From a virus: 22,135 nucleotides of DNA. The translations under genes were made by a program, and so were the position numbers. The notes below the pieces were generated by a model. It saw only the letters and a list, made by a program, of their open reading frames with translations. It did not search any database and was not told the origin of the DNA. Below are positions 1,522 to 7,876 of this stretch, one piece after another; position 1 is the stretch's first letter, and every line of letters begins with the position of its first letter. Location: the IMG/VR virus record IMGVR_UViG_3300033141_004106, positions 1-22,135 of that record, one strand, 5' to 3'.

Positions 1522-1689
1522 TTATTCCTCTCTACTAAGCATTTCTATAGCATCTTTCAGCTCTTCAATCTCACTATCTCTGTCTTCTTTTGTATCATTA
1601 ACATCCCAATTGATTTGATGGTATTGAAGATTTTGCAGGAATCTCAACCTTAAAAGAAGTTGTCTTATAGCTCTTTTGAATCTTCTCAT
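1522..1689 (-). CDS. Hypothetical small basic protein
   Basis: A 55-residue protein with an arginine-rich N-terminus (MRRFKRAIRQLLLRLRFL) and an acidic C-terminal half (DRDSEIEELKDAIEML). I chose the ATG at 1689 because it forms an ATGA overlap with the stop of the RNase HII gene and has GAGGG about 9 nt upstream. A longer reading from 1722 would lie inside RNase HII and lacks a ribosome site. No family recognised. The split charge suggests a small helical binding protein, which is inference. Confidence 0.55.
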   Translation of the reverse strand: MRRFKRAIRQLLLRLRFLQNLQYHQINWDVNDTKEDRDSEIEELKDAIEMLSREE

Positions 1690-2306
1690 TTCGTTTTTCC
1701 CTCTTGTATTTTTTTCCACCATGACTTACCATAGTTCACTCTCATATATGGACAAGCGCCATCTTTTCTGATTTTTTCATACATAACTTTATCAGGTGAG
1801 CCGTGATTTTTCTCGATATTATATCCTGGAAAAAATGAACCAAAACCCCTGAAGAGGCTATCCATGTATATTTTACCAACAGTGCTAGCAGCAGAGACAG
1901 CATAAACTTTGCTATCAGCATCAATCATGCATTCAACTGGTATGGCAACTTTGCTTTTGAAATAGTTCATCCATTCTTTTGAGAAGGGCCCATCTATAAT
2001 AGCTTTTTCTGGTTTGATGTTCATCTCCAGGAGCTGCAGATATAAGCTCTCAAGAGCTGAGGCTATAGCATAGTTACGAGCTTTATAGATTCCAACGCTG
2101 TTTATTGAATTTACCGTCGCAGGTGCTATTGTATAGATGCTATTATACTGCAGTTTCTCAAAAAGCTTTAGTCTCTGTTTATGAGTCAGTAACTTTGAAT
2201 CTTTGACACCCCTTACCTTTTTCAGTGGGTACAAAGCACATACCACACAATCACCAGATAATGAGGGCGAGAAATTATTTTCATCAATTCCTATTACTGA
2301 AATCAT
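1686..2306 (-). CDS. rnhB: Ribonuclease HII
   Basis: The 206-residue protein matches RNase HII, which cuts the RNA strand of RNA-DNA hybrids and nicks at ribonucleotides in DNA. The signature GIDE places catalytic Asp8 and Glu9. VRGVKDSKLLTHKQR matches the family's G(L/V)xDSKxLT motif. IIDGP gives Asp105, and DADSKVYAVSAASTVGK gives Asp131 in the DAK...SAAS block. The C-terminal end (HGSPD ... GACPYMRVNYGKSW) corresponds to the GYGT...HR.SF region. Length is normal. All four acidic residues appear present, so activity is likely. The loop after GIDE (NNFSPSLSGD) departs from the usual AGRGPLAGP. The gene starts in an ATGA overlap with the gene before it, placing it in the replication operon. 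A role in removing replication primers is inference. Confidence 0.88.
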   Translation of the reverse strand: MISVIGIDENNFSPSLSGDCVVCALYPLKKVRGVKDSKLLTHKQRLKLFEKLQYNSIYTIAPATVNSINSVGIYKARNYAIASALESLYLQLLEMNIKPEKAIIDGPFSKEWMNYFKSKVAIPVECMIDADSKVYAVSAASTVGKIYMDSLFRGFGSFFPGYNIEKNHGSPDKVMYEKIRKDGACPYMRVNYGKSWWKKIQEGKTK

Positions 2307-3155: not shown

Positions 3156-3926
3156 CTATTTCTTTTTCAACCAATCTTTATATTTTTTCTGTTCTTCTTC
3201 TTCTTTCTGTAATCCGCTTTCAACCCAGAGTCTACCAAACTGTTTTCTCAATTTGTCTGCTGAAAGTATGTTCTTATACCAGAAATCACTCTCATCGAAA
3301 ATCCAAGCTATAAGTCTCTTTATCTCGTTTTCTGTTGCTTCTTTTTTCTCAATCATAATTTTAAAAGTATTAGCCCAGTTGTCTAAATAAGCTTTACCTT
3401 GAAACTTATGTCTTGGTAACCTTTCTTTGATTTTTTCTTCAAAGAAAACAGCAAGTTCAGAATATTTTTCTGAACATTTCTTTTTTACTTTACTTTCTTT
3501 TACTTTATTTAAACTTATAGGCGATTTAATCTGATTTAATCCTGAGTTCTCATGATTAATTCCTGAGTTGATTATATTTTCCTCTGTTGGGGCAGGGATT
3601 TTAGACTTAGCTTCTCTATTTTTATCTATTTTTTGATATTTATGAAATTTTTCTAATTGAAGGTACAGTTCATCATTAGCTTTGTATAAAATAATTAATC
3701 TTGCTTCTGCTAATTCATTTATTAATTTTTTAATTTTAGATATTGTCATAGATTTAATTTTTGGGAATATGTGGCCTTTAATTAAATCAGGATCGGCTGA
3801 ATATCTACCCTCAGCATCTAAATGGGGAATAAGCCAGGTGTATAAAAGTCTGGCTGAATCTGATTTTAGAAATCCTAATGATTTGCTGTTAGAAATACAT
3901 TTTTTAATCATTCGTCCTTCAGGCAC
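3156..3926 (-). CDS. Phage replication initiator (winged-helix, DnaD/replisome-organizer type)
   Basis: The 256-residue protein opens with MPEGRMIKKCISNS, then SARLLYTWLIPHLDAEGRYSADP and IKGHIFPKI, the typical N-terminal DNA-binding domain of phage replisome organizers (about residues 1-95). A low-complexity linker follows (about 100-150), rich in Asn, Ser and Lys. A C-terminal domain (about 155-245) has Trp-rich helices (YLDNWANTFKIMIE, IAWIFDESDFWYKN) as in DnaD-like proteins. Translation probably starts at GTG 3926, five nt after AGGGGG, and a Met six codons later lacks good spacing. The linker is encoded by iteron-like repeats and an AT-rich tract (3476-3569), suggesting that the origin lies in the gene. 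The pseudoknotted RNA ends 15 nt upstream. Confidence 0.85.
   Translation of the reverse strand: MPEGRMIKKCISNSKSLGFLKSDSARLLYTWLIPHLDAEGRYSADPDLIKGHIFPKIKSMTISKIKKLINELAEARLIILYKANDELYLQLEKFHKYQKIDKNREAKSKIPAPTEENIINSGINHENSGLNQIKSPISLNKVKESKVKKKCSEKYSELAVFFEEKIKERLPRHKFQGKAYLDNWANTFKIMIEKKEATENEIKRLIAWIFDESDFWYKNILSADKLRKQFGRLWVESGLQKEEEEQKKYKDWLKKK
3476..3569. repeat. Candidate replication origin: iterons and AT-rich tract inside the initiator gene
   Basis: Two 17-bp near-identical repeats lie 21 bp apart: TGATTTAATCCTGAGTT at 3532-3548 and TGATTAATTCCTGAGTT at 3553-3569 (15 of 17 identical). A third partial copy, GATTTAATC, is at 3523-3531. Next to them, 3476-3520 is strongly AT-rich with a strand bias: the plus strand is T-rich and nearly free of G. 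Iterons inside the linker of the initiator gene followed by an asymmetric AT-rich segment is the architecture of the lambda origin in gene O. The repeats also encode a repeated peptide (INSGINHENSGLN), so a coding explanation is possible. Confidence 0.5.
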
Positions 3927-3940
3927 TATTTCCCCCTAAT

Positions 3941-4057
3941 AAAAAAAAGCCCCGATGCAACCTTACTTGGTAGTGGCAATTGGATGTCTCTGAATAGAGA
4001 CAGGCTACATTCGGGGCTTTATTTTCAATATTCATTTTCCACTACCAAGTTTGTCAT
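3941..4057 (-). ncRNA. Pseudoknotted RNA with own promoter and T8 tail (leader or small RNA)
   Basis: A minus-strand transcript predicted to start near 4057 begins with ACTTGGTAGTGG (4050-4039). It then forms a long stem between 4020-4003 and 3962-3946 (AAAGCCCCGA with TCGGGGCTTT, extended by seven pairs after one bulge). Inside is a second hairpin, TGTCTCT-ATTC-AGAGACA (4002-3985). The remaining loop holds CCACTACCAAGT (3976-3965), a perfect 12-nt complement of the 5' segment, giving a pseudoknot. The stem is followed by T8 (3948-3941), a terminator-like end. Two stem pairs are G-U in the minus-strand RNA but would be A-C mismatches on the plus strand, so the minus strand is the functional one. 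The element ends 15 nt before the GTG of the initiator gene. I match it to no known RNA family. Confidence 0.7.
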
Positions 4058-4063
4058 GCTTCA

Positions 4064-4093
4064 ATTATAAAAAACTGAATTAAGCTTTGTCAA
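4064..4093 (-). promoter_or_regulatory. Sigma-70 promoter for the structured RNA and replication operon
   Basis: On the minus strand, TTGACA (4093-4088) and TATAAT (4069-4064) are separated by 18 nt. Both hexamers are perfect consensus. Initiation about 7 nt downstream would fall near 4057, just before the 5' arm of the pseudoknot. It would drive the RNA element and, on readthrough, the initiator gene and those after it. Confidence 0.8.
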
Positions 4094-4108
4094 GAACTTT
4101 TTTCATAA

Positions 4109-4171
4109 GAGAGAGCCACCAGCCCGAAAGCAAAAGGAGGACGAAAGGGGGGATTGACTGACAGCTCTCTC
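4109..4171 (-). other. Long RNA hairpin with C/U-rich loop at the end of the recombination operon
   Basis: In minus-strand RNA, GAGAGAGCUGUCAGUC (4171-4156) pairs with GGCUGGUGGCUCUCUC (4124-4109) over 16 contiguous pairs, four of them G-U. Those four would be mismatches on the plus strand, so the minus-strand transcript carries the structure. The 31-nt loop (4155-4125) is C/U-rich and contains CCCCCC and CCUCC. It begins 7 nt after the stop of the preceding gene and lies before the promoter at 4064-4093. No U-run follows, so it is not an ordinary intrinsic terminator. Roles could include mRNA 3'-end protection, Rho loading or protein binding. Confidence 0.55.
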
Positions 4172-7447: not shown

Positions 7448-7476
7448 AGTATAGACAGTTTTAAACATTTTGTCAA
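7448..7476 (-). promoter_or_regulatory. Sigma-70 promoter of the recombination operon
   Basis: Minus-strand TTGACA (7476-7471) and TATACT (7453-7448) are 17 nt apart. Transcription would start near 7441, leaving a leader of about 100 nt before the ATG at 7344. The leader contains a short inverted repeat (GTTG...CAAC, near 7410-7424) but no recognised riboswitch. The -35 element lies 12 bp downstream of the stop of the regulator gene. Confidence 0.75.
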
Positions 7477-7487
7477 CCCTCCAGTCT

Positions 7488-7682
7488 TTACCCAATATCT
7501 TCAAGACTGACTTTATTGAGCTTATTGAGATATCCTTTCAGTATCGTTCTTACCAATGAGCTCTTGCTGCGGTCTGTCTTTTTAGCCAGCTCATTCAGCT
7601 GCTGATCATACTCTGGCTCAATCTCGAAATTGACTATAACCTTGCCCCGGGATGTTAATCTTTTTTGGTTTCCAGTTCTCAT
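7488..7682 (-). CDS. Ribbon-helix-helix (Arc/CopG-type) DNA-binding regulator
   Basis: A 64-residue protein. KVIVNFEIEPEYDQQLNELAKKTDRSKSSLVRTILKGYL reads as a beta strand (residues about 14-19) followed by two helices, the ribbon-helix-helix fold, which binds DNA as a dimer. The ATG at 7682 is chosen because GAGGAGG lies 6 nt upstream; a longer reading from 7730 would include the promoter itself. It is transcribed from the promoter at 7702-7730, about 115 bp from the divergent rightward promoter. Autoregulation and control of the divergent cluster are likely by analogy and are not shown directly. No clear operator palindrome was found. Confidence 0.82.
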   Translation of the reverse strand: MRTGNQKRLTSRGKVIVNFEIEPEYDQQLNELAKKTDRSKSSLVRTILKGYLNKLNKVSLEDIG

Positions 7683-7701
7683 GTTTAACCTCCTCACTAA
7701 C

Positions 7702-7730
7702 AATATAATGAAAGTTATTTCAAATGTCAA
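7702..7730 (-). promoter_or_regulatory. Sigma-70 promoter of the ribbon-helix-helix regulator
   Basis: Minus-strand TTGACA (7730-7725) and TATATT (7707-7702) with a 17-nt spacer. An AT-rich segment upstream (AATTAAAATATTTTC) could act as an UP element. It gives a very short leader that includes the GAGGAGG of the gene starting at 7682. Confidence 0.8.
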
Positions 7731-7847
7731 GAAAATATTTTAATTAAAAAGCATCTCTTAAAAGGTTAGTCAATAAGATTAGATAAGTCACCCCAAAAGA
7801 TGATATAAATTTCACCCCTTATTTCTTTAAATATTTTTAATTTTTAC

Positions 7848-7876
7848 TTGACAAACAGGGTTGAAAAGCTTATATT
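7848..7876 (+). promoter_or_regulatory. Sigma-70 promoter of the rightward small-gene cluster
   Basis: TTGACA (7848-7853) and TATATT (7871-7876) are 17 nt apart and preceded by an AT-rich stretch. Initiation would fall at about 7883, only 3 nt before the first ATG (7886). The first gene is therefore either leaderless or starts at the in-frame ATG at 7910. Two copies of TCACCCC (7788-7794, 7812-7818) lie upstream. Confidence 0.8.

Follow-up and report, generated by a model that had tools for sequence, protein, structure and literature searches.

Several described systems place a short RNA ahead of genes that it controls. In phage lambda, the strong promoter PR' is followed by a short terminated RNA with the late operon behind it (PR'-6S-tR', acting with Q), and for the P4 CI and P1 c4 immunity RNAs leader pairing together with leader translation decides termination. 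In IncI-type plasmids, a reading frame in the repZ leader is coupled to the initiator. With regard to small RNAs of prophages, PMC4825925 describes, beside the Q antitermination of lambda, the phage sRNA IsrK of the Salmonella prophage Gifsy-1, which has its own promoter and terminator and shows partial readthrough into an mRNA. In this mRNA, translation from the next start is coupled to a short upstream frame that overlaps it and whose amino acids are not conserved; an antirepressor gene is under the control of this frame, orf45, and the short IsrK acts in trans (PMC4825925). RydC is a short terminated sRNA that is stabilised by a conserved pseudoknot (PMC4337610). Finally, a pseudoknot in a replication-initiator leader is reported for IncI-type repZ (Asano and Mizobuchi 1998, cited in PMC8383071); as summarised in PMC8383071, it forms ahead of the ribosome site of repZ, is required for its translation and is blocked by an antisense RNA.

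The locus compared here belongs to a virus record of 22,135 bases, which was analysed as a whole (the window); its element at 3941-4057 is read on the minus strand. Like IsrK, the predicted RNA combines a promoter, a terminator and a short frame, which overlaps the downstream start by 8 nt in three phages and abuts it in one. Unlike IsrK, the window RNA is a pseudoknot ahead of replication genes, and its frame has its start within the RNA and passes through the terminator. IsrK is a tested precedent for a readthrough mRNA that is controlled via a short, coupled and non-conserved frame. RydC is shorter, enterobacterial, Hfq-bound and trans-acting, in contrast to the phage-borne window RNA, which comprises 117 nt, has an extra inner hairpin and heads an operon. 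With lambda PR'-6S, P4 CI and P1 c4 it shares the position of a short leader RNA ahead of an essential phage operon, whereas none of these three is known to have a pseudoknot of this kind. Furthermore, it differs from lambda PR'-6S by the lack of a recognised Q among the window proteins tested, and from IsrK, RydC and PR'-6S alike by having no Rfam match. Compared to IncI repZ, the window RNA has its pseudoknot intertwined with a terminator, shows no evident antisense promoter and may be followed by other genes. A repZ-type pseudoknot beside the initiator's ribosome site was not found, i.e., the pseudoknot helix S1 stops 39 nt ahead of the initiator start codon, from which the terminator separates it, and in three phages other genes follow the RNA.

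The positions of all features are listed in Table 1. The perfect TTGACA-N18-TATAAT promoter (4093-4064, minus) that the initial annotation had noted is read directly from the minus strand, where it is the sole 12/12 match of a consensus scan covering 19 kb. Given the 6-nt discriminator after TATAAT, the predicted +1 is 4057. With regard to the opposite direction, the consensus scan yielded no plus-strand promoter match reading into 3941-4057.

Table 1: Features of the predicted leader RNA and of its surroundings in the window.
Feature	Position	Strand	Remark
-35 element TTGACA	4088-4093	minus	also kept in L002, L003 and L005
-10 element TATAAT	4064-4069	minus	18-nt spacer; 6-nt discriminator to +1 at 4057
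Predicted pseudoknotted, terminated RNA, 117 nt	3941-4057	minus	based on fold, homologs and covariance model
ORF1 (putative), 10 codons, MTNLVVENEY	4025-4057	minus	AUG at predicted 5' end (leaderless)
S1 5' arm, pseudoknot helix, ACUUGGUAGUGG	4039-4050	minus	perfect complement of 3' arm
L1, unpaired joining segment, AAAAUGAAUAUUGAAAAU	4021-4038	minus	18 nt, nearly invariant
ORF2 (putative), 38 codons	3919-4035	minus	from L1 AUG through S2, P3, S1 3' arm and terminator
S2 5' arm, terminator stem	4003-4020	minus	conserved bulged A at 4010
P3, inner hairpin	3985-4002	minus	7 bp, loop AUUC
S1 3' arm, pseudoknot helix, CCACUACCAAGU	3965-3976	minus	perfect complement of 5' arm, 12 bp
S2 3' arm, terminator stem	3946-3962	minus	
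U8 tract, intrinsic terminator	3941-3948	minus	
DnaD-like replication initiator / helicase loader	3156-3926	minus	GTG start; phrog_2514 3.6e-19, phrog_2149 2.1e-16

All structural parts proposed beforehand, i.e., a bulged 17-bp closing stem, a 7-bp hairpin, a crossing 12-bp helix and a T8 end, were recovered at the same positions. Along the RNA, the segments follow each other as S1 5' arm, L1, S2 5' arm, P3, a linker, S1 3' arm, AA and S2 3' arm, where S2 comprises 17 bp with a single bulged A (4010) and L1 contains both the start codon of ORF2 and the stop codon of ORF1. The topology is thus that of an H-type pseudoknot with an inserted hairpin, a geometry for which L1 with its 18 nt and the length of the second loop would leave enough room. 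The nested fold of the element alone reaches -35.6 kcal/mol (z = -3.6), and none of the shuffled sequences folds as well. S1 is the only perfect 12-base inverted repeat of the whole window with arms at most 150 nt apart; on average, 0.4 such repeats are expected from whole-window shuffles, and a perfect 12-base inverted repeat is present in 1 of 2000 shuffles of the element. Elsewhere in the phages, no additional copies of the S1 arms were found.

To collect relatives, the upstream Cas4-like exonuclease was used as a query, which gave four IMG/VR contigs of 89-94% identity (L002, L003, L004 and L005); the initiator protein as query found no IMG/VR relatives. The RNA is present together with its promoter and terminator in three of the four close relatives, namely L002, L003 and L005, and is absent from L004, where other sequence immediately follows the upstream hairpin. 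The distant relative L030 (45%) carries a plain terminator and no pseudoknot RNA. A custom covariance model built on S2 and P3, a search that had been suggested along with the original description, recovered the four members (window, L002, L003, L005) with 139-146 bits; otherwise, only reverse-strand shadows and noise were reported among the seven whole records screened. Pattern searches, using L1 in a strict and a relaxed form and, separately, the S2-P3 core, led only to these three relatives and to unrelated sites, some of the latter (several) being gene starts. Within the GTDB genomes, the strict L1 pattern had zero matches and a recombinase alignment revealed no relative, and a Blast comparison of the RNA with phage and plasmid records resulted in short chance matches only. 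As far as the searched collections show, the family has four members. None of the 4227 models of Rfam 15 matched the window at gathering score, and the best weak matches of the element stay far under the cut-off (e.g., Phe_leader with 19.2 vs. 55 bits). This is in accordance with the initial annotation, which recognised no existing family. The element represents a new RNA family without Rfam match, whose functional class is known in outline and for which the mechanism given below is a proposal.

The comparison of the four homologs covers all three helices. In a hand register, in which L002 is read in its own register with S1 one pair shorter (pair 10 is absent from both arms), every pair of S1, S2 (16 pairs counted) and P3 is a standard one in each of the four homologs. 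Double-sided changes affect 10 pairs, i.e., five of S1 (pairs 3, 4, 7, 8 and 9), four of S2 and one of P3, in a sample of four sequences with three S1 variants, where several of the S2 changes reflect one shared event. Using an automatic (MAFFT) alignment, 95% of the cells are paired compared to 35-42% when slid, nine pairs show double changes (5.9 in shuffles), and the covariation score of 0.376 (0.212 in shuffles) is not reached by any of 500 shuffles. Given the changes of the S1 5' arm, the Watson-Crick pairing of the 3' arm has P = 0.0005 for L002 and P = 0.018 for L005 under a null that already grants transitions only. That is, compensatory changes in stem and pseudoknot arms, which had been set beforehand as a test, are present, and all helices covary. 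The earlier observation that G-U pairs occur only in the minus-strand RNA holds in the window and extends to the four homologs, which show seven G-U and no A-C cells; selection thus acts on the minus-strand RNA. Taken from this comparative evidence, the element is a structured pseudoknotted RNA under selection.

In the window, the DnaD-like initiator is the first gene of the replication operon and directly follows the RNA. Its start is probably GTG 3926 rather than ATG 3911, since the resulting N-terminus MPEGRMIKK matches the MARGRM, MAKGRM and MAEGRM of relatives (M-x-x-GRM). The T run is separated from this GTG by 14 nt, and across the four phages 13-19 nt lie between T run and next gene start. 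This leaves no place for a separate promoter, such that downstream expression has to come from readthrough or from upstream transcription. L004 has its replication genes but neither this RNA nor a promoter at that place, which shows that transcription from upstream can be enough. An initiator follows the RNA in all four phages, either directly (window) or behind one to two genes: L003 has an MT-A70-type methylase and a small frame in between, L002 a DNA methylase and another gene (with a DnaB-like helicase further on) and L005 a DUF559/MTES-type nuclease, followed by an initiator of a different family (Phage_rep_org_N). Given this varied cargo and the different initiator family, the RNA keeps its place at the front of a replication operon whose genes can be exchanged. 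Its placement upstream of a phage replication initiator, as first proposed, hence stands for the window, but the RNA is not bound to this initiator. The spot immediately behind the RNA is one of gene exchange (L012 7908-9330, L013 7884-9262 and L015 2025-2576), its cargo being a DNA methylase, an MT-A70 methylase or a DUF559/MTES nuclease; the window has none of these. An RNase HII-like protein (PF01351) is encoded in the replication operon (window 1686-2306, minus) and is also found in L003, L004 and L005.

Two features had been absent from the initial annotation, namely an AUG at the predicted 5' end and a frame running through the structure. The frame of the former (ORF1) is open in 4/4 phages and ends within L1; it shows no amino-acid conservation pattern. 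ORF2 is open for 36-40 codons in all four phages, passing through S2, P3, the S1 3' arm and the U tract. In the window, the ORF2 stop overlaps the start of the initiator within GUGCCUGA; in two further phages it overlaps the start of the following gene within AUGAGUAA, and in L005 it abuts this start (UAG AUG), i.e., the stop is located at +5 (three phages) or -3 (one) relative to the next start. For an open frame inside the RNA, the simulated chance of such a stop is 0.16-0.22 per phage (product 9e-4), which is suggestive only, as the placement was spotted after the fact. A convincing Shine-Dalgarno sequence of ORF2 is found in L002 only (AAGGA). We rejected ORF1 and ORF2 as conserved proteins: their variable sites are distributed over the codon positions as 4/5/2 and 5/5/5 without bias, and the two sequence groups use different frames for the C-terminal half of ORF2. 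When partial transcripts that end before the S2 3' arm are folded, S1 is extended by added pairs up to the ORF2 AUG in 4/4 phages.

We favour, with about even confidence, a terminated pseudoknot leader whose readthrough controls the replication operon. A sigma-70-type consensus promoter would yield the 117-nt RNA ending at the intrinsic terminator (S2 and U tract), and its 5' end would pair via S1 with a segment inside the terminator hairpin to form the pseudoknot. The majority of transcripts is expected to end at the terminator as a stable short RNA, and the readthrough fraction would carry the initiator and the remaining replication genes. A further step, in which ribosomes on the leader would set the readthrough, we consider tentative and on its own rather improbable. 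Here, ORF2 would start in the loop just past the S1 5' arm, span the terminator and end on the start codon of the next gene. Early ribosome loading could then result in readthrough and coupled translation, and early closure of S1 in termination, a choice suggested by S1 reaching over the ORF2 AUG before the S2 3' arm is made. This ribosome-gated version would explain the frames, their coupling and the position of the S1 5' arm over the ORF2 start region; against the model stand the missing coding signature of both frames, the Shine-Dalgarno sequence of ORF2 being convincing in L002 only and the case of L004, and a conserved antiterminator pairing was not found. If true, ribosome loading in the infected cell would decide the expression of the replication operon. 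That the diverging S1 arms act in addition to a translation-gated pseudoknot terminator as phage-specific copy-control or immunity determinants is doubtful.

Three options had been offered at the outset, among which the attenuator-type leader fits best and the free small RNA is kept as a rival. In the latter case, the element would be a RydC-like stable sRNA acting in trans, in which the pseudoknot shields the 5' end and L1 is the seed for host or phage mRNAs; the operon position would be incidental and readthrough a leakage. Its own promoter and terminator, the compact pseudoknot and the nearly invariant unpaired L1 would suit such a role, and RydC provides the precedent of a pseudoknot able to stabilise a terminated sRNA (PMC4337610). 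However, among the phage gene starts of the window and its relatives, none pairs with L1 better than with shuffled L1, and the RNA always heads a replication operon without room for another promoter; we regard a trans-acting sRNA as unlikely. Quite unlikely, in our assessment, is a gate like PR'-6S-tR' of lambda, i.e., an always-on promoter with a terminator that awaits an antitermination protein of phage or host, where the pseudoknot would be the recognition site or merely sharpen termination. The layout of strong promoter, short terminated RNA and operon behind is the same as for the lambda late promoter, and promoter and 5' sequence are conserved in all four phages, but no Q- or N-like gene was recognised among the tested proteins of the window, which is a fragment. 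Such a gate also leaves unexplained why S1 varies freely in sequence with its pairing kept, and why ORF2 is coupled.

The third option, a ligand-sensing leader, found no support. A riboswitch whose metabolite stabilises pseudoknot and termination would agree with the pseudoknot being joined to the terminator and with the conserved joining loop. Yet no Rfam riboswitch matches, no conserved mutually exclusive antiterminator was seen, the downstream genes are not metabolic and the distribution is very narrow, and we take this reading to be highly improbable. We hold it for hardly credible that the inverted repeats function at the DNA level, as protein operators or an origin structure, with the RNA being irrelevant. 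Inverted repeats that cross each other next to a replication initiator might serve as binding sites; still, the S1 arms change in concert, unlike a conserved protein site, the seven G-U cells without any A-C cell indicate one RNA strand, and the RNA is kept ahead of the different initiator family of L005. Iterons or an origin at the element were rejected as well, since neither a repeat array nor a turn of the skew is seen at 4 kb.

What is found here is a covariation-supported pseudoknotted RNA new to Rfam at a replication control point, in a group of tailed phages known here from metagenomes alone. Should the leader model be true, terminator and pseudoknot would be united in one fold and tied to a frame running through both, which would make a compact link of ribosome loading to phage replication.

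Beside the leader, a second conserved hairpin lies directly upstream, where the exonuclease operon ends (window 4097-4171, minus; L002 6657-6731, L003 6636-6710, L004 2061-2133, L005 1759-1839). Its stem of 15-16 bp shows double-sided changes between phages (GAGAGAGC/GCUCUCUC vs. GGCCGCC/GGCGGCC), and a good U tract is present in L005 only. The large loop contains tandem anti-Shine-Dalgarno-like UCCUCCYUUU motifs that resemble the 16S rRNA 3' end; the motif is also found in L030 (7880-7890). This hairpin could bind ribosome sites of mRNAs. Further promoter matches of 11/12 positions occur within window 7448-7876, namely at 7730 and 7476 (minus) and at 7848 (plus). They surround a CopG/Arc-like repressor gene (7488-7730), and the GC skew flips nearby; 7448-7876 is likely an early control region. 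Finally, the window encodes a phage sulfotransferase (639-1346, minus; PF00685, 8e-18), an unusual phage cargo that is present in all four close relatives with 64-89% identity.
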